NCBI GenBank assembly: GCA_029243845.1
Contig: JAQWRF010000118.1
Coordinates: 1-16,973, forward strand
Reading direction: 5' to 3'
Length of the DNA: 16,973 nucleotides
DNA from: Planctomycetota bacterium
Lineage (GTDB): Bacteria > Planctomycetota > UBA1135
Positions 1,877 to 16,973 of this stretch are shown here, piece after piece. The notes beneath the pieces were generated by a model that saw nothing but the letters and a program-made list of their open reading frames with translations, was not told the origin of the DNA and searched no databases. How positions within the stretch are numbered: position 1 is the stretch's first letter; the number at the start of each line of letters is the position of its first letter. A program made the translations under genes and the position numbers.

Positions 1877-1956
1877 TGCTGTTATTTTCTCAGTGTAGAT
1901 TGTTTTGTATCCCGCGCATGCACTTTTTTGCGCATTAACCACCATAGATTAGAACT

Positions 1957-2100
1957 CTAGGTGACGGGTACCTCAATTTTAACCTCGTAGTCCATAGATT
2001 CATAATTTGCCTGAGGAGCGGCTATTTTTTTGCCATCCACATGAAACGAGGCTTGGGCAATGTTATAATATTTCTGTGTCAAATATAAGCTATATTTCAT
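1957..2100 (-). CDS. Small ORF, 47 residues, unknown function
   Basis: Unrecognised small protein found by reading the minus strand. It starts with ATG at 2100, begins MKYSLYLTQKYYNIAQ and ends MDYEVKIEVPVT before TAG at 1959-1957. An in-frame TAG stands four codons upstream of the ATG, so the start is bounded. AGGAG lies six bases before the ATG, one of the better ribosome-binding sites in the window. The product is rich in Tyr and Lys, with no cysteine, membrane segment or signal peptide. It lies 80 bases upstream of glutaryl-CoA dehydrogenase on the same strand and could be a small accessory protein or leader peptide of that operon. Its first 25 bases overlap, antisense, the 5' end of addB as called here. 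It could still be a chance ORF, since the length gives little statistical support. Confidence 0.5.
   Translation of the reverse strand: MKYSLYLTQKYYNIAQASFHVDGKKIAAPQANYESMDYEVKIEVPVT
2061..2069 (+). promoter_or_regulatory. Extended -10 promoter for addBA
   Basis: TGTTATAAT is an exact match to the sigma-70 extended -10 consensus (TGn followed by TATAAT). No good -35 hexamer is found 16-18 bases upstream, which extended -10 promoters can do without. The predicted transcription start, seven bases past the final T, is G2076, the first base of the GTG proposed as the addB start. If both are right, the addB message is leaderless. The element lies inside the antisense 47-residue ORF. Confidence 0.5.
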
Positions 2101-4775
2101 CGCAAACTCCTACTATTAAAGGGCTTACGCGCGATATTCTGGAGAAAAACCCTGCTGCTGAGCTCGACAACTATATATTTGTCAGCAGTAGTTCTCGCAG
2201 CAACCGACTTCTTGAGCAAGAGCTATTGCTAGAGGTTGAAAATCGTGAGCTATGGTCAAGCTTTCAGGCGCCTCAATACGCCACTTTAGGCTCGCTGCCC
2301 CATCTGGTTCTCGATATTGCCACCAATCAACTGGCGTCCGCTGCTGCATGCCAACTTGCTTGGGTCAACGCCTTAAGTCATTGCGCGCCTGCACAGGCAT
2401 TGCTGCATTTTGGCGTTGATATTAAATCTCGTAGCGAAACTTTATTATTAGCGCAGCAGCTATCAAATTTCTTCTCGCAGCTTGCCGCGGAACAAATCGA
2501 CTGTCAGCTGCTGTCAGAGAATGCTGAACTTAGCGCAAGCGAGCAACAAAAATTTGCCTTACTGGCACAAATACATGTCGACTATCTTGCTTCTTTGGGC
2601 GCTGCAAAATTACAAGACAAAGATAAAGCGCGCCAAGCAGCGCTCGACAACAGCGATATTGTTCTTGACGCAACCACCAAGATTGTGGTGCTTTGCGTTC
2701 CCGAGATGAGTAACTTTCAACGCAAACTACTTAGCTTATGTGACTCGCAAGTAGAATTCGTACAACTGCAGTTTGATCACCTGACAAATGCTTTTGACGA
2801 TTTCGCCTGTGTCGATTGCGATGTATTTACCCAACCGGGTAATACTTTATTGCACGATGCCCGTCTTAAATTTTCGGCCAACCCGCAAGAGATGGTGGAG
2901 CGCGCCTTGCTTTCCCTCGGTACTAGTGACAGTAAACATTCTCCAGAAGATGTGACCTTTTCGCTGTTAGAAAAACAATGCGCACCCTTTTTAAGCCAAG
3001 CGCTAGGCGCATTCGATGTCGATGTCCGCACAGCGGTGGGCGGCGACCTTGAAAGCAGCTTGCCGGTATTGCTACTCAAACAGTTGAAAGCGTATTTAGA
3101 CCAGCCATCCTTCGATAATGGCGCAGCTTTACTGGTGCACCCTGATTTACTGCCTAAGCCGAAGTTAAAAGCGGAACTAGATAAATATCGCCAAGAAGAG
3201 TATCCGCAGTTACTACCAGAAATGTACTTGGCCAGACTACCCGAGGTGGTGCGTGTAAAAACCAATGGCCTGAATGCGGCTGCAGCCGCCACGCGTAACT
3301 TCTTACTCGATGTTTACGGCGATATCGACATCAACCCTGGGCAAAACGAAGAGTCCCATCGTCGCGCCAAAGGTCTTGAAATGATCGCCGCAACGCTTAG
3401 CGAAGTGCATAGCCTTGACGCGAGCCTTTCAAACAATCCAAAACTTGGGTTCAACTTCGCGCGCAGCTTAGATTTTATATTACACCAATGCCGTGGCAAG
3501 AAATTGGCTCAACGCTACAACGATCAAAGCGTAGAGTGTCTCGACTGGTTAGAGCTCAGTCTCGATCCAGCGCCAGAAATGGTCATTTTGGGCTTCAATG
3601 AAAATTATGTTCCGGGGCAGACCGCAAGCAACATGTTCATGGATAGCGAATTAGCGCAGCGACTAGGCATGTATTCCGATAAGCACCGGCTTGCTCGCGA
3701 TTCTTATATTTTGCAGTCGCTGGCCGCCGTCCGCAAAAATTCTGGGGGACACCTTCACCTTATTTGTGGACGTGCGCAAAATGATGGTTCACCCTTGCTA
3801 CCAAGTCGCTTGCTGTTCATGTGCTCAGATCACGACGCTTACGCGAATGCCGCTGAATTCAGCACTGAACCCTCGCCGCCGGTTAAGGCTGCCGAGCGCC
3901 CTGCTAGCGAACGCGTGTTGCCACGCAACAGCAATATTGAATCTCCGCTCAAAGTATCTGTCACCGCAATTAATAATTACCTTAAGTCTCCCTATTCTTT
4001 TTATCTCAGCAATCATTTGCGCCTGCGCTCGGTTGACGTCAATGGTGACGAACTCAACCCGATGGTTTATGGCAACTTTGCGCACGCTGTCATGCAAAAT
4101 TTTGGCAATAGCGAAGTCCGCAATAGTGTTGATGCCGGTGAAATTGCCCATTACCTCCGAAAGGAATCCCATCGATTGTTCGAGTTGCGATTCACTAGCC
4201 CTAGTGCTGTCATTCGTGCTCAAGTCGAGTTACTTAACACGCGCTTCCTTGATTTCTCTGAAAAGCAGGCAGCGCGCGCTGCCGATGGCTGGAAAATAAT
4301 TTCTAGCGAGCGTAAGTTGCCTCCGGGCTGCAGACTGTTTGACAGCAAGTTTGACATCAGTGGCATCATCGACCGCATTGATCAGCGTGGTGACGAGATT
4401 TGCTTGATTGACTACAAAACTCCAAATGGCAAGGCACGCTACACCAAAAATGCTTTGTTCAAGGGTGACTTGTTTACAGATTTGCAGTTGCCCCTTTATT
4501 TCTTCCTAAGTGACAACTTCAAGGACTTGAAATCAAGCAAAATTAGTTTAGCTTACGCGCTGCTTACTGCCGATTCTAAGGATTGCGGTTTCACCAGTTT
4601 AAAGTTTGACGATAAGCACAAATTAATTGCCGAGGCGCAGTGTCGTGAGATTTTCACGGCTATTGAGTCCAAGAATTGGTTCGTGCTTGGCGACTCACCC
4701 TTTGCCGGCGCTACCGAAGAAGCTTTGCGAGGCGATTCTCTCTTAGGCGTAACAACTCATTGCGATGGTGAATAA
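2076..4775 (+). CDS. addB: AddB-like subunit of helicase-nuclease, with PD-(D/E)XK nuclease domain
   Basis: Non-motor nuclease subunit of an AddAB-type complex that resects double-strand DNA ends for RecA. From GTG 2076 it has 899 residues; a TTG at 2007 is also possible, but its extra 23 residues are antisense to a small ORF and look noncoding. Near residues 30-50 the segment YIFVSSSSRSNRLLEQELL resembles the start of AddB's degenerate helicase fold, and I see no Walker A, consistent with a non-ATPase AddB. The C-terminal nuclease has GNFAHAVMQ near 667, GIIDRID near 763, LIDYKT near 777 (Asp and Lys of the PD-(D/E)XK core) and LQLPLYFF near 805. No CxxCx5C cluster is visible near the C-terminus, unlike the iron-sulfur AddB of Bacillus. 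Its end overlaps addA by 11 bases, so the subunits are probably translationally coupled. Confidence 0.85.
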   Translation: MSNISYISSQTPTIKGLTRDILEKNPAAELDNYIFVSSSSRSNRLLEQELLLEVENRELWSSFQAPQYATLGSLPHLVLDIATNQLASAAACQLAWVNALSHCAPAQALLHFGVDIKSRSETLLLAQQLSNFFSQLAAEQIDCQLLSENAELSASEQQKFALLAQIHVDYLASLGAAKLQDKDKARQAALDNSDIVLDATTKIVVLCVPEMSNFQRKLLSLCDSQVEFVQLQFDHLTNAFDDFACVDCDVFTQPGNTLLHDARLKFSANPQEMVERALLSLGTSDSKHSPEDVTFSLLEKQCAPFLSQALGAFDVDVRTAVGGDLESSLPVLLLKQLKAYLDQPSFDNGAALLVHPDLLPKPKLKAELDKYRQEEYPQLLPEMYLARLPEVVRVKTNGLNAAAAATRNFLLDVYGDIDINPGQNEESHRRAKGLEMIAATLSEVHSLDASLSNNPKLGFNFARSLDFILHQCRGKKLAQRYNDQSVECLDWLELSLDPAPEMVILGFNENYVPGQTASNMFMDSELAQRLGMYSDKHRLARDSYILQSLAAVRKNSGGHLHLICGRAQNDGSPLLPSRLLFMCSDHDAYANAAEFSTEPSPPVKAAERPASERVLPRNSNIESPLKVSVTAINNYLKSPYSFYLSNHLRLRSVDVNGDELNPMVYGNFAHAVMQNFGNSEVRNSVDAGEIAHYLRKESHRLFELRFTSPSAVIRAQVELLNTRFLDFSEKQAARAADGWKIISSERKLPPGCRLFDSKFDISGIIDRIDQRGDEICLIDYKTPNGKARYTKNALFKGDLFTDLQLPLYFFLSDNFKDLKSSKISLAYALLTADSKDCGFTSLKFDDKHKLIAEAQCREIFTAIESKNWFVLGDSPFAGATEEALRGDSLLGVTTHCDGE
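2107..2111 (-). promoter_or_regulatory. Shine-Dalgarno sequence of the 47-residue ORF
   Basis: Minus-strand AGGAG followed by six bases and ATG. This is near-ideal spacing and the main reason to treat the following short ORF as translated. It lies within the antisense 5' part of addB. Confidence 0.5.
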
Positions 4776-7770
4776 AATGAAGCCATCACAACAAATCAAG
4801 TTGGCCTCCGCGGGCACCGGCAAAACTTTTTCGCTGTCTAACACTTACTTGGGCTTATTCACCAACGGCAGAGCACCTAGTGAAATCATGGCATCCACTT
4901 TCACGCGCAAGGCTGCTGCTGAAATCTTAAAGCGCTTATTCGAGCGCTTAGTAGAGGGTGTAAATGATGCCGAAAAATTGCAAGAGCTGAAAGACTTCTC
5001 GGCCATTCCTAGCGATTGGTGTGTTGAAGATGTGAAAGCGTGCGTGGTAAAGCTTGCGTTGAGCATAGATAAAATTCGAGTCTCGACGCTTGATGCATAC
5101 TTCAACACAGTAGCTTCGCAGCACCGACGCGAACTAGGATTACCTTTGCAATGGCGCATGAGTGAAGTCCATCAAGATGCGGAACTGTTGCAATCCGCCA
5201 TCGGAAATTATGTTGCGCAAAACAGCCTGGATGACATCGTATCCATTGTCTCGTCACTGGGTGATGCAAATGCCCCGCGTGATTTCCTAGACAAATTGCT
5301 GAGTGAAACCACTGCCACCCTAGATTTAATCAGCGACTGTGACGAGCAATCCTGGGATTGCATCTCGCCTTTCGCCACGAATGTTTCCTCCGAATTGTTA
5401 TTAGGGAAACTTGATGGCATCAACAACATCATTGAGCGTAAAGGCGCAGAATCTAAAACTAAGACAATGATCGACGCTATCAGTGATGGAAATGTCAAAG
5501 CGATGGTCCACCACAGCGTCTATGCCGACAACCTATGGTACAAGAAACCTATTCACGATGATTGGGTTGAGTTGTGCCCTCTGGTTCTCGATTACGCGCG
5601 CAGCGTTGCCACACAACAAGTCATAGCGCGCAACAAAACATATGCCCGCCTGTTCAAAGATGTACAAAATGAACTACTTTCCCTGCGACAACAATCGCGA
5701 TTATTTAGCTTCAGCGACATTACTCGTCTTATTGCTAGCGCCGTTGTTGAGCAGCGTATTGATTTAGCCGATAGCGCATTAGATTTACTCCTCGATGAAT
5801 TCCAAGACACTTCTGTTTTGCAGTGGCGTATTCTACAACCACAAATCAGCGCAAGCATTGAACAGCAAAGATCGCTCTTTACTGTAGGCGACACCAAGCA
5901 AGCCATTTATGGATGGCGCTCAGGTGATTCTCGCCTGCTATCCGGATTCAAAGATTGGTCGCAAAAAAATACTCAAGGTGGCTGCGTAGAACAAAGCACC
6001 TTAGAAAAAAACTTCCGCTCCAGCCCGGTTATTTTAGACACTACCGACTTGGTGTTTGGCAAAGCAACTCAATTGGTGCCCAACAGCGAAGAAGTCGCCA
6101 CTGCGATTAACGCCTGGACCGCTGATTACGAAAAGCATGTGGCCGCTAAGAACATAGCCGGCTGCGCCCTACTCTTTGAAGTAGAGAAAACCGAGACTAT
6201 AAGTGAGAAGTTGGCGTTGGCTAAAGCTGCAGCTGCCCGCGCGGCAAAACTACACGAACAAGCGCCGTCTAAGTCTATTGCGATTTTGGTACGGCAAAAC
6301 TCTATGTTAGCGCTGATTCAAGATGAATTACGCAAACTTGATGTGCAGGCCGGCAGTCACGGCGGAGTTGCGATTACTGACGCTGAATCGGTGTTAATCG
6401 CACTTTCTTGGTTGACCGCAGTATTTTATCCTGGTGACACTTTAGCGCGGTTCCATGTGCAGACTTCACAACTCAGCACCTTCGGCGACGAAGATGATTT
6501 AAGCGACGAGCAGTTTGATCGACATGCGCAGTTGCAGCGACGCACCATTCTTAGCATCGGGTTCGGCGACTACCTACGTCGCCACGTCGAGGACTTACGA
6601 GGGTGTTTCCCTAGCGGTCACGACCGTCACCGCCTGCAGCAGCTACTCGACTTAGCCTATCGTTTCGATGCGCTATCGGACAAGGATGCACTTGGCTTTG
6701 TCGAGTTCATACATACCACTAAGGTCAGCGACAGTTCGGCAACCAAGGTGCGCTTGATGACTATTCACGCGGCAAAAGGTTTAGAGTTCGATGCTGTAAT
6801 CTTGCCCCAAATGAACGATAGCTTAATTGGCAATATCCACCGCCAAATTGCGGTCGGCTCGCGGCCAAGTACCACCGCACCTTACTCGAACTTATGCGCC
6901 TACCCTTCGGCAACGCATGCTGAATTAATTCCAGAGCTCGCAAAGCTTGAGTCCGAGTTGAAAACATCACGCGCTAGCGAAGCTCTGTCATTGATGTATG
7001 TCGCCTTAACCAGGGCTGTCGAGCGCATTGAGGTGATGGTGCCTCCTGCCAGTAAATCCGGAGCTACCGATCGTGTGAGCTGCCTATTGCGCAACGGAAT
7101 AGACTGCGTGGATTCCGACACCAAACTCCTTTTTCCCGACAATGCCGAATTGTCTTTGAAGTGGCAGCATCCACAAAGTGACCTTAACAGTTGGGCGCAA
7201 GATGATATCCAAGAGATCGTGGTGCAACCGGAAAAGGCGTCACCCTTCACAGCCAGCAAAACTCCTCGATTATTAAAGCGCGTTGCCCCATCACAGGTTG
7301 GTGTTGGCAATTACCGCGGGGCAGATATCCTCGGCGAATTTAGTCAAGCTGCGATGACGCGTGGCTCAAAGATTCATGCTCTACTTGAGAACTGTGAATG
7401 GCTTGAAGATTTCACTACGGACGACAGCGAGCTGCAAGTCATGCTAGCGAAAGAGCATGTTCGCCAGAAATTGAACCGGCCGCCTGTTGGTGATTTTGAA
7501 GTTTGGCGCGAGCGCAACTTTAGCACATTAATTAATGAAGGAGACAGTAGTTATATCTTACGCGGGTGTTTCGACCGAGTTGTTATTCAGCTCGACCCTG
7601 ATGGCAAAAAAGTTGCAGCAGAAATCATTGATTACAAAACGGGGGCCATCAACGACATCAGTCGCGCGAAGTACCAAGCGCAGCTCGAGGAGTACTCGAA
7701 AGCCCTGCAGCTACTACTCGACCTCGGTGTCGACGACATCAGCTGCTGCTTGCTCGAACTCGATGCTTGA
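4765..7770 (+). CDS. addA: AddA-like UvrD/RecB-family helicase-nuclease
   Basis: Motor subunit of the AddAB-type enzyme: an SF1A 3'-5' helicase with its own C-terminal nuclease. It has 1001 residues from ATG 4765, somewhat shorter than typical AddA of about 1150-1200. Helicase motifs in order: ASAGTGKT (Walker A) at 14-21; ASTFTRKAAAEI near 43-54; LLLDEFQDTS near 340-349 (Walker B); GDTKQAIYGWRSGD near 375-388; EKNFRSSP near 413-420; RLMTIHAAKGLEFD near 663-676; MYVALTRA near 744-751. The nuclease shows GCFDRV near 934, EIIDYKTG near 953 and YQAQLEEYSKAL near 969, so its active site looks complete. A second ATG at 4777, one base after the addB stop, is an equally good start. The last 57 bases are also the 3' end of the opposite-strand propeller gene. 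Confidence 0.92.
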   Translation: MVNKMKPSQQIKLASAGTGKTFSLSNTYLGLFTNGRAPSEIMASTFTRKAAAEILKRLFERLVEGVNDAEKLQELKDFSAIPSDWCVEDVKACVVKLALSIDKIRVSTLDAYFNTVASQHRRELGLPLQWRMSEVHQDAELLQSAIGNYVAQNSLDDIVSIVSSLGDANAPRDFLDKLLSETTATLDLISDCDEQSWDCISPFATNVSSELLLGKLDGINNIIERKGAESKTKTMIDAISDGNVKAMVHHSVYADNLWYKKPIHDDWVELCPLVLDYARSVATQQVIARNKTYARLFKDVQNELLSLRQQSRLFSFSDITRLIASAVVEQRIDLADSALDLLLDEFQDTSVLQWRILQPQISASIEQQRSLFTVGDTKQAIYGWRSGDSRLLSGFKDWSQKNTQGGCVEQSTLEKNFRSSPVILDTTDLVFGKATQLVPNSEEVATAINAWTADYEKHVAAKNIAGCALLFEVEKTETISEKLALAKAAAARAAKLHEQAPSKSIAILVRQNSMLALIQDELRKLDVQAGSHGGVAITDAESVLIALSWLTAVFYPGDTLARFHVQTSQLSTFGDEDDLSDEQFDRHAQLQRRTILSIGFGDYLRRHVEDLRGCFPSGHDRHRLQQLLDLAYRFDALSDKDALGFVEFIHTTKVSDSSATKVRLMTIHAAKGLEFDAVILPQMNDSLIGNIHRQIAVGSRPSTTAPYSNLCAYPSATHAELIPELAKLESELKTSRASEALSLMYVALTRAVERIEVMVPPASKSGATDRVSCLLRNGIDCVDSDTKLLFPDNAELSLKWQHPQSDLNSWAQDDIQEIVVQPEKASPFTASKTPRLLKRVAPSQVGVGNYRGADILGEFSQAAMTRGSKIHALLENCEWLEDFTTDDSELQVMLAKEHVRQKLNRPPVGDFEVWRERNFSTLINEGDSSYILRGCFDRVVIQLDPDGKKVAAEIIDYKTGAINDISRAKYQAQLEEYSKALQLLLDLGVDDISCCLLELDA

Positions 7771-9335: not shown

Positions 9336-10067
9336 CTATAAACTATACTCTAGCAAACGCTCGTATGCCGGCAAAGCAAACTCAAATAGTTCCTCTAACT
9401 CAGAGGGTAGCTCGCCGACCTTAGGCACATGCGCATTCCAGCCGCTAGTCTTCATCACTTTGTCATACCATGCGGGAGCCCAAACACCGTAGCTGCTGTG
9501 ACTACCGACTGGCCAGTGCATCATTTGCTCTTCAAACTCGATGTCTAATGCAGCGCACAATCGTGGCAACATCGCGTGCGGGCTGGCTAGCAATTTTGTC
9601 GAATCGACAACCACTGGGCGCTTACCCTGCTCAAGCAAACGCTCAAACAACTGCAACTGCTGCCCATAGGCAATATCGATGCGTTCAAGTTGCCCCAAGT
9701 CGCTCAACAATGATGGCAACATTTCGCGAGGATGCCTAATCAAAAAGGCATGAGTCGTGTTATCGTCATCGATGAAGGACAGATCTTCGTCGCCGAACAA
9801 ATGGTGTGCCATATGTTTGACATACTGGACGGGCTTATCACATTCCGCGCGCAACACGCCGTCAACCACTGCGGCTACCGACTGCGCCTGCGACGCCATC
9901 ACTTCGCCACGCATCGGGTGCAATTTACCGCTTCGTTTTAAGTAGTAAGCATAAAGGGGTTCGTCAACTCCCACGACTTGTGAGTGTTGACAAAAACTTC
10001 GTAGCAACGCCGTCGACACCGTGCGTGGACAGGCCCACATTGCGATGCGTTTAGTCGTAGAAGCCAT
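9336..10067 (-). CDS. Sulfotransferase-like P-loop protein
   Basis: 243 residues with the two nucleotide-binding elements of sulfotransferases. WACPRTVSTALLRSF at 11-25 corresponds to the 5'-phosphosulfate loop, and AFLIRHPREMLPSLL at 107-121 to the 3'-phosphate-binding motif with the Arg and Ser that contact PAPS. The C-terminal part (WPVGSHSSYGVWAPAWYDKVMKTSGW, spanning about 165-190) is typical of a bacterial sulfotransferase-like group that includes many uncharacterised members. Substrate unknown; PAPS use is inferred from fold only. No signal peptide, so probably cytosolic. Its ATG overlaps the topoisomerase stop by one base (TAATG), indicating translational coupling, and its stop abuts the cdd start. 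Confidence 0.8.
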   Translation of the reverse strand: MASTTKRIAMWACPRTVSTALLRSFCQHSQVVGVDEPLYAYYLKRSGKLHPMRGEVMASQAQSVAAVVDGVLRAECDKPVQYVKHMAHHLFGDEDLSFIDDDNTTHAFLIRHPREMLPSLLSDLGQLERIDIAYGQQLQLFERLLEQGKRPVVVDSTKLLASPHAMLPRLCAALDIEFEEQMMHWPVGSHSSYGVWAPAWYDKVMKTSGWNAHVPKVGELPSELEELFEFALPAYERLLEYSL

Positions 10068-12952
10068 TAACTTTTCTTTTTGCTTACTTTCTTCTTGGTC
10101 ACTTTCTTCTTCGTAACCTTTTTCTTAGTCGACTTCTTCTTAGTAGATTTCTTCTTAGCACCCGCTTCGCGCGGCTTAAATTCAAAGCCATGGCGACCGT
10201 TTGGCTTGCGCACTAAGCGCGCAGTGAAATTACGTCCCTTGCGAGAAATAAAATCTTCAATCCAGTCGGTATGCCCCTCCTCGCCAAAGTACGGAATCAA
10301 GTCCGCGCGCTTCATCTCTCGTTGGCAAATGGTACGCGGAAATTTAATCCCTTTTGGTTCGCTAGAAACAAAGTCCGTAACCGTTTCAATAATCATGCCC
10401 TTACCTAGCGGACACTCAACGAACTCAGACTTGTCGATTTCGTAAGATATCTCTTCCTGGCCAACAGCGCCTTTCTCGTCGTCAGACTTAAAGTTTTTAA
10501 CGGGCTCAAACTCGAGTTTGTTTTCGTCATCGACTTTTATTCTTCCGGCATAAGATTCGCCGCGCATGCTAACGAAGCCTTCAATCGGACCAGAGTCGCG
10601 CTCATTTAACAGGCGAGTCGCAAGTGGGCGATTAATAAAACGTCCTCTAAATTCTTTCCAGATGGTGTAACCACAAGCATCAGGCTCTACGGCCTCAATT
10701 TTAAAATCTTCTTTCAGCGAATCGCCCGGGGCGATAGCGTTGACTAATGGCAGTAATTCGGCGATGTAATCATCTACGAAGCTAATGCGGTTAATCTTGA
10801 AGTTAATATAGCCATTCGTACGCTTGAGATCGTCTTCGACCTCGGTAACTTCATCACGCGCTGCCAAGAATGCGTGAACGACTTCGGCAATGCCCGCCAG
10901 CGGAGTTTTTGATTCTTTGCCCATCGACTTAATAGTCAATTTATAAGAATCGCCTTTTGCACGGCGAGCACATCGGTAGCCTTTTAAGCCTTCTCGTATT
11001 TCGTGTTCGTCAAGCGGGCACTTGCCAACGGACTCTTCATCTTTGTATAGCTCTTCATAAGAGAAGTTGACGAATTTATCAACCAATACACGAGTGGTCG
11101 ACTCTATTGAAGCCATGTAGTCTGCGCGGTGCATGTCGCCATGCTCAACTTTATACAACGAAGATTCCATTTCGGCAGTTTGCTCGGCCTTAGCCAAATC
11201 AATCGCGCCTACTCGCTCTAAGAAGTCAATTAAAGTAATGCCCTTAGCCGCAGCTCGTAAAGTTTTACCGTTACGTAGAACATATCCCTTACGCACCAGA
11301 GCTTCGATGGTTTGCGCACGCGTTGCCGGCGTGCCTAAGCCTTTGCCCTGCATCGACGCTACCACTTCTCCATCGTCAATATCTTCAAAGGTTTCTGCCG
11401 CAACATCGGTAGCAATTTCCATTTGGCGCAACAGTCCAGCTTCGGTGTAACGCTTAGGTGGACGGGTCGAGTCGGCCTCACACGCAATCTGGTTCGTGGT
11501 GCCTGTCGCAGTTTCGCCGACATCTACCCCAAGGTCTCCCAATTGTTCGGACGCCTTCGGCATGCGATGCACCAGCATCCAGCCCGGATAGACCATACGC
11601 TTTGATTCGTTAAAGAATGTTAAAGGGTCTTTGCCTGGAGGCGAAATTACAGTCTTGCGAACGACGTTTTCCCATTTCGATGGCTTCATAAACGCAGCCA
11701 AGAAACGACGTGTCACTAATTCAAAAATCTTAGCATCGTCACCCCCAAGAGTAGTCTTAGGCAATTGCCCCGTAGGGATAATCGCAAAGTGATCCCCTAC
11801 TTTCGAGTTGTCAAAATTACGTTTGGAGTGTTGCTTGCCATCTGCAATAATCAACTTGGCGGCTTCCGTGAAATTAAGGGCTTGCTTGCCATCTGCAAAT
11901 GCTTTACTCAATTCGCCGCTAGCGATTCCGCTAAGCAGCTCGTCAACCTTTGAAACATAATCTTCTGGCAAGGCCTTTGAATCCGTACGCGGGTAAGTTA
12001 GCACTTTATGACCTTCGTACAAACGCTGTGCGGCGCCTGAAGTTCGGATTGCTGAGAATCCAAAACGGTTGTTGGCCTCTTTCTGTAGCGAAGTCAAATC
12101 GAACAAAGCCGGCACATTACGCGTAGAACTAGACGCCTTCTCGGTAACTGCCGTCGGCTGCCCTTCGCAAAGTTTTGCCATTGCATCCGCGTCAGCTTCT
12201 TTCCATATCTTGTCGCCGTCCTTGCCCGAACGCGATGTCCGATAAGTGGCATCATATTTAGAACCATTGGCAGAGAAGGAACCCTTCAAGCGCCAGAAAT
12301 CTATAGGTATGTGCGCTAGCACCTCAACTTCTTTATGCGCCAGTACAGCTAGTGTCGGTGTTTGCACGCGGCCTGCAGACCATACTCCGCGCTCGCGACG
12401 CCCTTTGAGGCGCTTAGTAATGCCACGGGTCGCATTAATGCCAACCAGCCAATCACCCTCAGCGCGACAATATGCGGCATCAGACAGTCCCTCGAACTCT
12501 TTTCCAGGGCGAATGTCCTCGAAAGAGCTAAGAATGGCGTCTTTAGTCATCGACTGCAACCACAGCCTTTCTGATGGCTTGCCAGTGCCCATAAATGCTT
12601 CAATCTCACGGAAGATTAATTCGCCCTCGCGAGCAGCATCACAAGCATTGAGTATTGTATTTACGTCTTCGCGCTGCGCCAGCTTTTTCAACACGCGCAA
12701 CTGCTTGGTCGCGCCCTCGCGTGGCTTACGCACAAACTGCTCGGGAATAACCGGCAAGTCAGCAAGGGACCACCCAGAAAGAGCAGGGTTGTAGTGCTCG
12801 GGATCGGCCAACTCAAGCAAGTGGCCAACTGCCCAGGAGATAAGGTAGTTCTCCCCCTCCCAGTAGGCATCTTCGACCTTCGTAAACTTGCCTGGAAGTG
12901 CGTTTGCTAAGTCATTAGCAACGCTTGGTTTTTCAGCGATGATTAGTTTCAT
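10067..12952 (-). CDS. topB: DNA topoisomerase III (type IA), long form with lysine-rich tail
   Basis: Type IA topoisomerase that cuts and passes single strands to relax or decatenate DNA. It has 961 residues against about 650 for E. coli TopB. The TOPRIM domain starts at once: IIAEKPSVA with Glu7, and CDAAREGELIF at 104-114 with the Asp and Glu that bind magnesium. GVWSAGRVQTPTLAVL is near 189-204 and the catalytic tyrosine is Tyr320 in LTYPRTDS. GLGTPATRAQTIEALVRKGYV follows in the mid region. The extra C-terminal part has two repeat-like domains in which the usual paired-cysteine zinc knuckles are reduced to single cysteines (near KCPLDEHE and ECPLGKG), then a 30-residue tail of KKKxT units. 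No Shine-Dalgarno is evident, but the conserved N-terminus fixes the ATG. It heads a four-gene operon. Confidence 0.93.
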   Translation of the reverse strand: MKLIIAEKPSVANDLANALPGKFTKVEDAYWEGENYLISWAVGHLLELADPEHYNPALSGWSLADLPVIPEQFVRKPREGATKQLRVLKKLAQREDVNTILNACDAAREGELIFREIEAFMGTGKPSERLWLQSMTKDAILSSFEDIRPGKEFEGLSDAAYCRAEGDWLVGINATRGITKRLKGRRERGVWSAGRVQTPTLAVLAHKEVEVLAHIPIDFWRLKGSFSANGSKYDATYRTSRSGKDGDKIWKEADADAMAKLCEGQPTAVTEKASSSTRNVPALFDLTSLQKEANNRFGFSAIRTSGAAQRLYEGHKVLTYPRTDSKALPEDYVSKVDELLSGIASGELSKAFADGKQALNFTEAAKLIIADGKQHSKRNFDNSKVGDHFAIIPTGQLPKTTLGGDDAKIFELVTRRFLAAFMKPSKWENVVRKTVISPPGKDPLTFFNESKRMVYPGWMLVHRMPKASEQLGDLGVDVGETATGTTNQIACEADSTRPPKRYTEAGLLRQMEIATDVAAETFEDIDDGEVVASMQGKGLGTPATRAQTIEALVRKGYVLRNGKTLRAAAKGITLIDFLERVGAIDLAKAEQTAEMESSLYKVEHGDMHRADYMASIESTTRVLVDKFVNFSYEELYKDEESVGKCPLDEHEIREGLKGYRCARRAKGDSYKLTIKSMGKESKTPLAGIAEVVHAFLAARDEVTEVEDDLKRTNGYINFKINRISFVDDYIAELLPLVNAIAPGDSLKEDFKIEAVEPDACGYTIWKEFRGRFINRPLATRLLNERDSGPIEGFVSMRGESYAGRIKVDDENKLEFEPVKNFKSDDEKGAVGQEEISYEIDKSEFVECPLGKGMIIETVTDFVSSEPKGIKFPRTICQREMKRADLIPYFGEEGHTDWIEDFISRKGRNFTARLVRKPNGRHGFEFKPREAGAKKKSTKKKSTKKKVTKKKVTKKKVSKKKS
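10070..10159 (-). repeat. 15-base tandem repeat encoding KKKxT pentapeptide units
   Basis: The last 30 codons of topB encode about six copies of a lysine-rich pentapeptide, KKKST/KKKVT/KKKVS, from AKKKSTKKKSTKKK to the terminal SKKKS. The units have diverged at the fourth and fifth positions and in synonymous bases. Lysine-repeat tails on other bacterial type IA topoisomerases, such as Streptomyces TopA, bind DNA and raise processivity; the same role here is inference. Confidence 0.85.
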
Positions 12953-13117: not shown

Positions 13118-13612
13118 ATGACTAAAACCATGAAAAAAAGACTTCCATTACTAGAATCCTTCGCTGCGGTATTCGCCGTAGCCACAGTAGCTTTTATGAC
13201 CGCACTACCCGCCATCCAAGAGACTGGCGAGCGCAATGTTGATCTACAAGACAACCTGTCGCTGATTCGCACTGCCGTGTTCCGCTTTTCGATGGACCAC
13301 GAAATGGATGGCACAGAAGTGCACCCTGCGCAAAACAACAATGACTTCGAGTTGCAGATTCTTGGTCGCACTCGCAGCGACGGCTCAACACATCAGCGTG
13401 GACGCTTCGAAGACCGCTTCTTCGGGCCTTACCTAAACGCAATGCCTGTGAACCCTGTAAATGGTTTGAGTTCGGTACGCATCATGCCAAGCGGCATCAG
13501 CGAGCCTATTTTCAACGGTCTAGCTGGATGGGTATACGTAACCGACACCGGTAAGATTTTCGCTGACCTAGCAGGCGTGGACGACCGCGGAATTGCATTC
13601 AGCGAATACTAA
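13118..13612 (+). CDS. Pseudopilin-like (GspG/PilE-type) protein with degenerate prepilin signal
   Basis: 164 residues. A short basic stretch (KKR at 6-8) precedes LPLLESFAAVFAVATVAFMTALPAI, a single hydrophobic helix resembling the FTLIELL...LPAI segment of type IV pilins and type II secretion pseudopilins. Glu13 would be the conserved Glu+5, but the Gly or Ala at -1 is replaced by Arg8 and residue +1 by Leu9, so prepilin peptidase cleavage is doubtful. The globular part has NLSLIRTAVFRFSMDHE, LQILGRTRSDGS and FFGPYLNAMPVNPVNG (101-116), a pattern seen in GspG-like proteins. No secretion or pilus genes are adjacent. ATG 13118 is used; ATG 13130 is an alternative. Only 12 bases separate its stop from the convergent phosphatase-cytochrome gene. 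Probably an inner-membrane-anchored periplasmic protein. Confidence 0.7.
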   Translation: MTKTMKKRLPLLESFAAVFAVATVAFMTALPAIQETGERNVDLQDNLSLIRTAVFRFSMDHEMDGTEVHPAQNNNDFELQILGRTRSDGSTHQRGRFEDRFFGPYLNAMPVNPVNGLSSVRIMPSGISEPIFNGLAGWVYVTDTGKIFADLAGVDDRGIAFSEY

Positions 13613-13624
13613 ATCACCCACACC

Positions 13625-14509
13625 CTAATCATTGCGGTACTTGCGATGGCAGTAGACACACGAAGATTTTAATTCTTTGTAACTATCTTCTACTGCCTCG
13701 CTTTTTTTATGGACTAAGGCTTGGTACATATCATCCGCCAAGGCCACGGATTGGTTAATGCGCTTTTCAAAATCAATGTTGCCAACTAACTCGATGGGGA
13801 TGTCCTCGGCACAGCCGCTCAATAAATCACGCGTCTGGCGCGCTTCATTAACAACCACTAAATCTGGATGACTCACGGGCACTTGCCAATTGTTTTTATG
13901 TAATAGCTTAATGTGATCCCAATTCCTATCAAGCTTTGCCATGCCACCAGCAAAAGATTCTATTTGAGCGACTGCATGTAAGGCTGGCCATTGCGCTTCA
14001 GAAACGCTTGAATCTTGCCAATTGCTTACAGCGCTCCATAGTCCGGGATAATCCTTGGAGGTCCCGGCCATTTCTAGAACCCTTAAACTACTAGCCGAAG
14101 AACATCCGCTACGTTGACGCCAAGCGATGGCTGCTACGGCTGGACCACGATGTTTACCGTGATGACAATGAATGTAAAATATATCGTCAGGTCGCTCAAC
14201 AATCATACGCTTGATGCTCAACAACGCATGCTCGTCAATTTCATCGTAATCGACAGGGATATGAATATAACTCAAACCATACTCGGCCGCCAACTCGACA
14301 TCGGGTTGTACGCTGTCAACGCAAACCACCGTATTCACCCCTAGCGCAGCAAGTGCGGCAAACGCTGCCGCATCAGCCGGAGCGGCGCCGGTATAGATGC
14401 CATCCTCAAGCGCGAGCAAGCCATCGATATTGTCATCGGTAACGCGGGAAATGCTGGCGACCATGCCACACGCCGCGAGCAACAAGCAACCGCTGAGAAA
14501 AATCTTCAT
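13625..14509 (-). CDS. Putative lipoprotein: tyrosine/dual-specificity phosphatase-like domain fused to CxxCH cytochrome domain
   Basis: 294 residues from ATG 14509 (a GTG at 14515 is also open). The N-terminus MKIFLSGCLLLAAC fits a lipoprotein signal with lipobox LAAC and Cys14 as the lipidated residue. Residues about 25-165 form a phosphatase-like domain: NIDGLLALEDGIYTGAAP, then the P-loop FYIHCHHGKHRG at 111-122 with Cys115 and Arg121 in the Cx5R signature, and Asp87 or Asp89 as the likely general acid. Residues about 170-294 are helical and end with SCVYCHRKYRND, in which CVYCH at 284-288 is a heme c attachment site placed at the extreme C-terminus as in cytochrome c'/c556. Covalent heme requires export, consistent with the signal. 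It lies 57 bases downstream of the TrpD2-like gene on the same strand and is probably the last gene of that operon. Substrate unknown. Confidence 0.78.
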   Translation of the reverse strand: MKIFLSGCLLLAACGMVASISRVTDDNIDGLLALEDGIYTGAAPADAAAFAALAALGVNTVVCVDSVQPDVELAAEYGLSYIHIPVDYDEIDEHALLSIKRMIVERPDDIFYIHCHHGKHRGPAVAAIAWRQRSGCSSASSLRVLEMAGTSKDYPGLWSAVSNWQDSSVSEAQWPALHAVAQIESFAGGMAKLDRNWDHIKLLHKNNWQVPVSHPDLVVVNEARQTRDLLSGCAEDIPIELVGNIDFEKRINQSVALADDMYQALVHKKSEAVEDSYKELKSSCVYCHRKYRND

Positions 14510-14566: not shown

Positions 14567-15592
14567 CTAATCACGGAACGATTCAAGCAAGCGCTGAGCT
14601 GCCCCGCTACGAATTGCCGCGCCTGCTAGCGCAACGCAACTGGCCACCGAGTCATTAGGTTTGGCCAGCGAAATCATTAATCCTGCACTTAGCAAAGTCG
14701 ATGACAGCGCGGGGCTCGCCACACCGAGCAACACTTGATGAGTCACGTCAGCGGCTTCCTTTAGATGATCGTCGGATAAAAAATGTGGCTCGTCAGATTC
14801 GAACAATGCGACATCGCCCGGGTGGATACGCAGCGGCGCCTTGACTCCATCGACAATGCGCATGCCGCGTGTCGTTTCTAGAGTCGATGGGTCGATTGAG
14901 CCATCAAAGCCTTGCACAATCAAAGCATGACGGTGCTGCAAGGACTCTTGCGCATTGGCCGCGATGCCAAGCACGGGGCCAGGAACCGCAGCCGACATCG
15001 CGCGCGAGCCATCGGGTACCAACAACTTTGTAACGACATCGGGAATACCGCGTAGCAAAGTTTCGTCTTCGATACGTTGTAGGCGCTGCCAGCCGTCATC
15101 GTAAATGGTTGGGTTCCAGCAAGCGAGTGGCCCGTTATCAAACATGGACTCAACATGATGGGCGTCTCCTGTAAGCGGACTGCACATTTCTTGCCACAAA
15201 TCGCCAGGGGTCAATCCGCCCCACCTCAATCGGGGCGAAGCTTGCAACAGAACGGGTACGCCCGCTGCCGCTGCTGCAGCTGCTGCTGCCAAACCCAATG
15301 GCGGCGCAGTGTGCTTGCCTAAGCGGCTCGTTGCAACTACCACACAGTTTTCTGGCAACTGCGGGAAAACGATTCGTGAGCGTGCAGCGCGGGCAGCGCC
15401 GACCAACTCTTCGGCAGTCGTACCTTTACTGCGCATCACCGACAGGAACACCGCAAGCTGGGCATCGGTGCCCGCGCCGTCTAAAAACAAATAGAATAAT
15501 TCTTGGGCCTCAGACTCACTGAGATTGTAAGTTCGTCCGCCAGTAATCGCGCCAGTAATGCGCTTTAACCACGGTCGTATCTTGTCAGCCAT
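14567..15592 (-). CDS. TrpD2/YbiB-like member of the anthranilate phosphoribosyltransferase fold
   Basis: 341 residues with the helical N-terminal domain of the TrpD family (LSESEAQELFYLFLDGAGTD near 24-43, then AVFLSVMRSKGTTAEEL). The PRPP-binding GTGGD motif is absent: the equivalent stretch reads CVVVATSRLGKH at 83-94. The motif that should pack beneath it is an uninterrupted nine-alanine run (102-110) followed by GVPVLL. This fits the TrpD2/YbiB branch, whose E. coli member binds nucleic acid rather than making phosphoribosyl-anthranilate. No trp genes are nearby. The ATG directly follows the peroxiredoxin stop (TAAATG), so it is probably co-translated with it. Confidence 0.78.
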   Translation of the reverse strand: MADKIRPWLKRITGAITGGRTYNLSESEAQELFYLFLDGAGTDAQLAVFLSVMRSKGTTAEELVGAARAARSRIVFPQLPENCVVVATSRLGKHTAPPLGLAAAAAAAAAGVPVLLQASPRLRWGGLTPGDLWQEMCSPLTGDAHHVESMFDNGPLACWNPTIYDDGWQRLQRIEDETLLRGIPDVVTKLLVPDGSRAMSAAVPGPVLGIAANAQESLQHRHALIVQGFDGSIDPSTLETTRGMRIVDGVKAPLRIHPGDVALFESDEPHFLSDDHLKEAADVTHQVLLGVASPALSSTLLSAGLMISLAKPNDSVASCVALAGAAIRSGAAQRLLESFRD

Positions 15593-16078
15593 TTATTCTT
15601 CTTGTAGTGCTTTCAGAAAAGTTTTATGTACGCGCTCGGCGTGCCCCTTAACGCGGCAATTGTCCCACATAGACACTATCTTACCCGATGGGTCAATAAT
15701 AAACGTACAGCGCACATGAGTTTGGTATTGCAAGCCGCCGCGCTTTACGTCACGGAAGGCGCCATATCCGGTTGCGACTGCGCTGGACCCATCGCTTAGC
15801 ATTGGGAAAGGTAAACCGGATTCGGTGCGCATAGCTGCCAACTGTTTTCTAGGTGCATTACTAATACCAACCAAAAATGCGCCAGCTTTTTTGAACTCGG
15901 CCAGGTATTTATTAAAGTCAGCCGCTTCGGTGCGACACGAATTACTAGTGTGCGCCGGGCAAAAGAAAACCACAATCCAGCGTCCGCGATGTTCGGTTAA
16001 GCGGAAACGCTCACCTTGATCGTCTTTGAGAGTAAACGCCGGAGCGCGTTTACCAATAGAAAGTTTTGGATTTGCCAA
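15593..16078 (-). CDS. bcp: Peroxiredoxin, PrxQ/Bcp type
   Basis: Thiol peroxidase reducing hydrogen peroxide and organic hydroperoxides; 161 residues, the usual Bcp length, no signal peptide. APAFTLKDDQGERFRL is at 12-27; FFCPAHTSNSCRTEAADF at 38-55 carries the peroxidatic Cys48; HVRCTFIIDPSGKI at 121-134 supplies the conserved Arg123; and RVKGHAERV near 142-150 matches the Bcp C-terminal helix. The active-site Thr of Px3Tx2C is Ser, and the Cys five residues after the peroxidatic one that resolves it in E. coli Bcp is missing; Cys40, Cys124 and Cys141 are other candidates. The start is TTG at 16078: a TAA stop is immediately upstream in frame and the family N-terminus begins here. It lies seven bases after the amidohydrolase stop with no Shine-Dalgarno, suggesting coupling. 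Confidence 0.88.
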   Translation of the reverse strand: MANPKLSIGKRAPAFTLKDDQGERFRLTEHRGRWIVVFFCPAHTSNSCRTEAADFNKYLAEFKKAGAFLVGISNAPRKQLAAMRTESGLPFPMLSDGSSAVATGYGAFRDVKRGGLQYQTHVRCTFIIDPSGKIVSMWDNCRVKGHAERVHKTFLKALQEE

Positions 16079-16085
16079 TTAGAGA

Positions 16086-16973
16086 CTAGGGATTATCGAC
16101 TACCTCAGGGGCGTCGATAATAGTCTCTTCTTCTATTTCGTCAATCACTTCTTCAGCACGAGGGCGAATGTGCGCAAAATACGATGACCGTTGCTTGTCA
16201 TACATCATCTTCCCATCAACGATAGCCCATTGCACAAAGCTGCGGTAATGAAAAAGGTCGCCGTCGCAAACAATAATGTTAGCGTCTTTGCCGACCTCAA
16301 TAGAACCCAAGCGGTGGTCAATCCCGAGCATCTCAGCAGCGTCGATAGTGATCGCACGTAAAGCGGCGTCTTGCTGCAACCCACCACGGATAGCAAAGGC
16401 TGCTTCCATTGGCAGGGTCATCAAGTCACGACCCGCAAGACCCATCAGTGAAATCGAATTCTCGCCAGGAAGAATCGCAAATCTAACACCATGTTCCCAA
16501 AGCGTTTTTGCATTTTCAATGGTCCAGCCACTGGGTCGATTCAAATCATCACTAGCCCACTTTTTATTTCGCGGAGTAATAACCAGGCGCGCGTTAACAC
16601 GTCCGAGACGTCCGGCGCAAGCCCACGCTTCTTGACCACCAAAAATCACAGATTGCATTGGGTATTCTTCGAGCAACTCGCAAGTCGCCAACAAATCCTT
16701 TAACGAATTCGCTGAGAGTCGTGCTGTCGCTTCACCTTTCAGCAGCGACAAATATTCTGGCTTAACACCTTTCGCTTCTGGTTCATCACCGGCATCTTCG
16801 CCCATCGAAGAGGTTAACTCCCAGCTGCGATGAAGGCGCATAAAATCACGCACCTTAGAGAACTCGTCACGAACGCGGCGGCGACCCGCTGATGACGTTG
16901 ATGAGTAATTAAGATTAACCCACTCCGTCGGACCAACGAGGACGTTATCGATAGTGCCGTGCTTTAGATTGGC
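16086..16973 (-). CDS. Amidohydrolase-superfamily protein, C-terminal part (cut by window edge)
   Basis: The minus-strand frame is open to the right edge, giving 295 visible residues without a start; the GTG at 16853 is internal, not the true beginning. The C-terminal half is typical of imidazolonepropionase-like amidohydrolases: DLMTLPMEAAFAIRGGL, DAALRAITIDAAEMLGI, RLGSIEVGKDANIIVCDGD and FVQWAIVDGKMMYDK, the last segments belonging to the small beta-sandwich domain. The HxH metal site would lie beyond the window. Around GENSISLMGLAGRDLM the usual late aspartate ligand is not obvious, so activity is uncertain. The tail is strikingly acidic (EEVIDEIEEETIIDAPEVVD). It is the first visible gene of the operon with the peroxiredoxin, TrpD2-like and phosphatase-cytochrome genes. 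Confidence 0.82.
   Translation of the reverse strand, partial: ANLKHGTIDNVLVGPTEWVNLNYSSTSSAGRRRVRDEFSKVRDFMRLHRSWELTSSMGEDAGDEPEAKGVKPEYLSLLKGEATARLSANSLKDLLATCELLEEYPMQSVIFGGQEAWACAGRLGRVNARLVITPRNKKWASDDLNRPSGWTIENAKTLWEHGVRFAILPGENSISLMGLAGRDLMTLPMEAAFAIRGGLQQDAALRAITIDAAEMLGIDHRLGSIEVGKDANIIVCDGDLFHYRSFVQWAIVDGKMMYDKQRSSYFAHIRPRAEEVIDEIEEETIIDAPEVVDNP

Follow-up and report, generated by a model that had tools for sequence, protein, structure and literature searches.

The window, i.e., the whole 16,973-nt stretch of planctomycete DNA that was analyzed, carries on its minus strand (13625–14509) a gene encoding a 294-aa fusion of a dual-specificity phosphatase (DSP) and a cytochrome c, a putative lipoprotein according to the ORF translation and the AlphaFold2 model. 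A short signal peptide is followed by the lipobox Leu11-Ala12-Ala13-Cys14 (14468–14479), and the protein is predicted to be exported and is probably lipid-anchored. The phosphatase domain (PTP fold) comprises residues 22–174 (13988–14446). It contains the P-loop HCHHGKHR at residues 114–121 (14147–14170) with Cys115 and Arg121, as well as Asp89 (14243–14245), which was aligned with the general acid Asp105 of TpbA. The class II cytochrome c domain with its four helices comprises residues 185–292 (13634–13957) and includes Met190 (13940–13942), the predicted distal heme ligand. The predicted heme c attachment site CVYCH is located at residues 284–288 (13646–13660) with His288 as the proximal ligand, and six residues remain C-terminal to this His. 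All of these features lie on the minus strand. The lipobox LAAC, the Cx5R loop with Cys115 and Arg121 and the CVYCH near the C-terminus had been named in the original prediction, and the ORF translation contains all three at these residues.

The AlphaFold2 model (pLDDT 94.6, pTM 0.86) consists of two confident domains, of which the first has a DSP fold near the periplasmic TpbA and the second the four-helix fold of a class II cytochrome c. The modelled C-terminal 119 residues fold into four helices, and this bundle matches both cytochrome c′ and b562, as had been expected for the last 120 residues or so. The proposed combination of a phosphatase-like and a C-terminal cytochrome c domain in one putative lipoprotein is backed by the model and its fold matches, and the two-domain architecture within one chain is regarded as secure. 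For the PTP/DSP assignment, the HCx5R active-site loop and, in the predicted model, the fold are present. For class II cytochrome c (PF01322), model and alignments contain the four-helix bundle with a CxxCH near the C-terminus. In the Pfam search all scores of the window protein were below the curated cut-offs, with 23 vs. 27 bits for PF22785 and 21.1 vs. 27 bits for PF22784 (the PTP-SAK and Tc-R-P models), and 20.3 vs. 26.5 bits for Cytochrom_C_2 (PF01322). Both domains are therefore divergent, though the models support both folds. Cytochrom_C_2 was matched at an E value of 0.01 or better by 72 out of 77 family members.

Extent, conservation and variants of the family

The contig search with the single window protein as query found no relative. 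Using set A1, 42 sequences obtained by plain protein similarity, at least 489 encoding loci were found. The named records among the best 80 of these at least 489 loci, which were kept, belong mainly to Planctomycetota, in addition to Verrucomicrobia and a few others; one of the loci, L077, lies in Blastopirellula marina DSM 3645. Among the genomes of relatives, the window's own included, 46 out of 61 had a match at an E value of 0.001, and in 42 genomes a match reached residue 265 or beyond. The sample of the phylum contained some match in 136 of 195 genomes and a single row spanning both domains in 70; three further genomes (G048, G152 and G155) had a shorter but strong fusion row, resulting in a total of 73 out of 195.

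None of the 169 distinct full-length loci (window included) deviates at Cys115, Arg121 or Met190, and the CxxCH is intact in all 168 of them whose sequence is not truncated by the end of the contig. Because only loci with both domains were admitted to this set, it documents the joint conservation of the residues and is silent on single-domain relatives; 78 of its loci came from a search seeded partly with a P-loop pattern. In set A1 the same three residues and the CxxCH were found to be equally invariant. Of 32 columns checked in the 169 loci, Pro44, Gly57, Val64, Pro85, Tyr88, Cys115, Gly118, Arg121, Leu157 and Met190 were invariant, whereas Cys284, Cys287 and His288 were kept in all except one locus cut by a contig end and H114 in 167. 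Judged from this conservation in 169 relatives, the motif set is beyond chance, and the fusion represents a conserved family across many planctomycetes. According to a home-made rule, 98 of the 160 testable members have a lipobox and 50 another signal or transmembrane stretch; 12 have neither.

The expectation that homologues keep the Cys/Arg pair together with the CxxCH holds for the full-length fusions and fails for the wider DSP family, which includes stand-alone DSPs lacking the cytochrome (e.g., L044 and L127–L135). One of them, L127, is a tandem DSP protein with the loop HCHHGKHRGG in copy 1 and a degenerate copy 2. Locus L136 contains a second, cytochrome-only lipoprotein-like gene (5490–6194, plus strand) directly behind the fusion.

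In several loci a further domain is fused. An alkaline phosphatase is located N-terminal to the DSP in L087 and L112 (Pfam) and in L091, the front part of which matches the alkaline phosphatase of L087. The DSP is preceded by a Na+ nucleoside transporter in L103 and by a glutathione peroxidase in L207, and an MsrB follows the heme domain in L008. In L138 (G203) a Na/Ca exchanger stands before the DSP-cytochrome unit, whose loop TCETGRDR keeps the Cys and the Arg. Fused partners were accepted only with a Pfam match (L087, L103, L112, L008, L138 and L207), plus L091 by comparison. Extended open frames ahead of the fusion in genomes rich in G+C (e.g., L033, L042, L204 and L205) were rejected as mostly spurious, since their codon-position G+C differs from that of the gene. 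The fusions to glutathione peroxidase and MsrB, one case each, lend support to the redox theme of the original prediction. A split version was identified in L126 (G150), where the minus strand at about 1955–3052 of the reversed locus encodes a DSP followed by a class II cytochrome in two lipoprotein-like genes. Their open frames lie on the same strand and overlap, as expected if both halves work together.

Genomic context and respiration

Directly upstream of the fusion gene, the minus strand of the window encodes a TrpD/YbiB-like protein (14567–15592; Glycos_trans_3N and Glycos_transf_3 in Pfam) and a peroxiredoxin (AhpC-TSA, PF00578; 15593–16078; E 4.1e-32). The TrpD-like protein, whose cluster covers 14 loci, scores far under the cut-offs of the TrpD models. 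Together with an amidohydrolase, these genes (14567–16853, minus strand) recur as a group in the window's family. A peroxiredoxin gene on the same strand 1.2–1.6 kb upstream was detected in 17 loci, namely 16 loci of the window's family (window included; about 1.2–1.4 kb) and L122. The peroxiredoxin that had been named as consistent with a redox theme is real and recurrent in this family, while it lies near the gene in only two other loci. Further peroxiredoxins were found on the opposite strand in L124 and 5–6 kb away in L026 and L104, and several loci have too short a flank. On the other side of the gene, a convergent 164-aa ORF (13118–13612, plus strand) is pseudopilin-like by eye and has no Pfam match; relatives of this ORF accompany the fusion in 13 loci, a figure that includes one contig twice. 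A topoisomerase III-like ORF (by eye; 10067–12952, minus strand) ends in a lysine-rich tail of the KKKSTKKK type.

For the analysis of neighbours in the 80 named loci, the longest adjacent ORF on the same strand was taken, resulting in 62 upstream ORFs, of which 61 were scanned (L110 omitted), and 50 downstream ORFs. The most common upstream match was the Glycos_trans_3N partner of the window's family (9 of 61), followed by Alk_phosphatase and UPRTase (2 of 61 each); the most common downstream were DLH/GCE_fung esterases (5 of 50). The alkaline phosphatase ORFs lie just upstream in L068 (5976–7835) and L079 (715–2493) and are closely related to the one fused in L087, so that this partner occurs both as a neighbour and as a fused domain. 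Conserved neighbours are largely confined to the window's family and rarely recur elsewhere. Gene neighbours other than alkaline phosphatase were rejected as a clue to the substrate. A nucleotide-salvage reading was left as weak; it would draw on the nucleoside-transporter fusion of L103, the UPRTase upstream in 2 loci and an ORF of the window that by eye resembles a cytidine deaminase.

Every one of the 73 genomes that carry a strong fusion row had a COX1 match vs. 99 of the 122 without (Fisher p 1.2e-5; kinship ignored), an association which is only suggestive. The cytochrome c assembly domain (PF01578) was present in 26 of the 27 genomes searched, including both same-genus relatives, and ResB in 22 of 27. 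The window's own assembly, which is 85% complete, has no match to Cytochrom_C_asm or ResB.

Heme ligation and active-site chemistry

Hemes of the low-spin c556/b562 type have a Met of helix 1 and a His as axial ligands, which are Met7 and His102 in cytochrome b562. In the structural alignment, residue 9 of the model pairs with residue 1 of b562, and residue 8 with residue 9 of the cytochrome c′ of A. xylosoxidans. Assuming a gapless first helix, the aligned ranges of the predicted model place Met190 (model residue 15) at residue 7 of b562 and residue 16 of cytochrome c′; the hmmer alignment to b562 has a starting register that differs by three residues. Residue 16 is presumably the distal site of cytochrome c′, which fits the L16 mutants among the structural matches from A. 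xylosoxidans. From these data we infer that Met190 lies at the distal heme-ligand site of the b562/c′ type. A five-coordinate cytochrome c′ has no ligating distal side chain, whereas the predicted model has Met190 at this position, as do 169 of 169 loci. A six-coordinate low-spin heme ligated by His288 and Met190 is predicted for the family, and covalent heme attachment and heme ligation in the window protein are likewise putative. The ligand pair points to an electron-transfer (redox) heme rather than a ligand-binding heme. Since the distal Met190 is invariant, it argues against gas sensing, and the gas-responsive phosphatase that had been offered as one option is weakened accordingly.

In Cys-based phosphatases a Ser or Thr is expected after the P-loop Arg. 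The window protein has Gly122 instead, and the family has G in 144, S in 19 and A in 6 of 169 loci. The general-acid Asp of the WPD-like loop is present as Asp89 in the window and in 111 of the 169 loci altogether. It is missing in 58, where position 89 is occupied by S (18), K (16), R (9) or others, K or R accounting for 25. This position covaries with residue 116, as D occurs with H in 109 loci, K with F in 15 and R with F in 8 (169 loci). With 58 of the 169 loci lacking the acid, the function common to the family may be something other than classical phosphatase chemistry. Inositol pyrophosphates are reported as substrates of a PTP enzyme that lacks the loop acid (PMC9038691), so that the loss of the acid is no proof of inactivity. 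At all positions other than Cys115 and the two cysteines of the heme site, Cys occurs in at most 47 of the 169 loci. Thus, a second conserved cysteine was not found, which lowers the likelihood of a regulatory disulfide switch.

Possible functions and comparison with known systems

The most likely function, proposed here tentatively, is that of a redox-coupled exported tyrosine/dual-specificity phosphatase; both the activity and the coupling are predictions. The catalytic Cys115 would share its chain with a class II c-type heme ligated by His288 and Met190, and this heme would exchange electrons with periplasmic carriers or oxidants. Its redox state could, directly or via a change of shape, switch or protect the Cys115 thiolate, so that dephosphorylation outside the cytoplasm would track respiration or oxidative conditions in the envelope. 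This function is favored by the joint conservation of both domains and their key residues in the 169 loci and across the phylum sample, as well as by a DSP half that is near TpbA and, in the window protein, includes the general acid D89. Redox enzymes are tied to the relatives through the L207 and L008 fusions and the peroxiredoxin gene of the 16 window-family loci. Further support comes from the split halves of L126, the alkaline phosphatase fusions and neighbours, the COX1 association and the occurrence of PF01578 in nearly all genomes searched. Counted against it are the missing general acid in about a third of the loci, the lack of a conserved second cysteine and neighbours that outside the window's family point to no single substrate. 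The same holds for the missing Cytochrom_C_asm and ResB matches in the window's own assembly, the b562 register shift of three residues and the redox fusions, which were seen once each.

The two modules might instead merely share one tether, with a constitutive exported phosphatase serving nutrient or envelope dephosphorylation and the cytochrome acting separately as an electron carrier or docking element. This is rather unlikely, although it would suit the fusions to alkaline phosphatase, nucleoside transporter and Na/Ca exchanger and the alkaline phosphatase genes upstream in L068 and L079. Multi-domain cytochrome proteins (PSCyt) are also known in planctomycetes (PMC5615132). However, both halves retain their key residues throughout the 169 loci (selected as spanning both domains), and the DSPs of the wider family that stand alone exist separately.

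An unlikely alternative is a PTP pocket turned oxidoreductase, in which Cys115 and Arg121 would bind a thiol, a sulfur species or an oxyanion, while the heme removes or supplies electrons, feeding, e.g., peroxidases or MsrB. The invariance of Cys, Arg, Met190 and the heme site while the general acid varies would fit such a pocket, as would the glutathione peroxidase and MsrB fusions and a weak match, far below the cut-offs, to the sulfur-transferase models TIGR01244 and bifunc_ST_SDO. The loop spacing, however, is the phosphatase-like Cx5R, whereas that of rhodaneses is C-x4-R. In addition, the window protein and two-thirds of the family overall have Asp89, and the alkaline phosphatase fusions and neighbours suggest phosphate chemistry. 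Somewhat more doubtful still is the idea that the thiolate pocket and the His/Met heme c form one redox center that passes electrons between Cys115, or a bound thiol or oxyanion, and the respiratory cytochrome pool, i.e., an oxidoreductase linked to cytochromes or a phosphatase gated directly by electrons. If true, this would constitute a new class of periplasmic enzyme. A gas sensor, whose cytochrome c′-like heme would bind NO or CO and control the phosphatase, is very improbable, given the invariant Met190 at the position of residue 16 (L16) in the A. xylosoxidans cytochrome c′, even though the class II fold matches cytochrome c′ and NO-binding heme-c sensor domains are reported in another fold (PMC12889525).

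Among the matches listed, no report of a DSP-cytochrome c fusion was found in the open-licence PubMed Central literature. Both halves are known folds, and together they would form a heme-c-linked enzyme with a DSP catalytic part of predicted activity. The strict conservation across many planctomycetes, plus verrucomicrobial and a few other loci, suggests a needed function. The redox-coupled phosphatase, if the coupling is real, would connect electron transport directly, at the molecular level, with extracytoplasmic dephosphorylation.

In comparison to known systems, TpbA (PA3885) of Pseudomonas aeruginosa, a periplasmic dual-specificity phosphatase with a known envelope substrate, shares with the window protein the exported DSP fold, the HCx5R loop and the general-acid position (Asp105/Asp89). 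In the matches obtained, TpbA chains align only with the phosphatase half. The loop of TpbA is HCKHGNNR, with Asp105 as the proposed general acid (PMC4409338), compared to HCHHGKHR in the window protein, and by alignment the residue after the Arg is Thr in TpbA and Gly in the window protein. A TpbA orthologue would be single-domain and act on TpbB/YfiN, whereas the window protein has the extra cytochrome half. The atypical DSPs AtPFA-DSP1 and Siw14, which lack the WPD-loop acid, have the same fold and share the absence of the acid with the 58 acid-less family members. The window protein differs from them in having Asp89; AtPFA-DSP1 is of plant origin, with inositol pyrophosphates as its substrates, and these enzymes have no heme.

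The cytochrome half resembles class II cytochromes c and cytochrome c′ in its four-helix bundle and C-terminal CxxCH, and cytochrome b562 in its four-helix bundle and in the Met that the structural alignment places at position 7 of b562. Unlike these proteins, it forms the C-terminal half of a phosphatase, and no open distal site is expected. The heme PAS domains of Geobacter MCPs and the sCache_heme/DUF3365 domains likewise have an extracytoplasmic heme c in or beside a signalling module. Their sensor fold is PAS or Cache and their listed outputs are non-phosphatase, whereas the window protein has a class II cytochrome.
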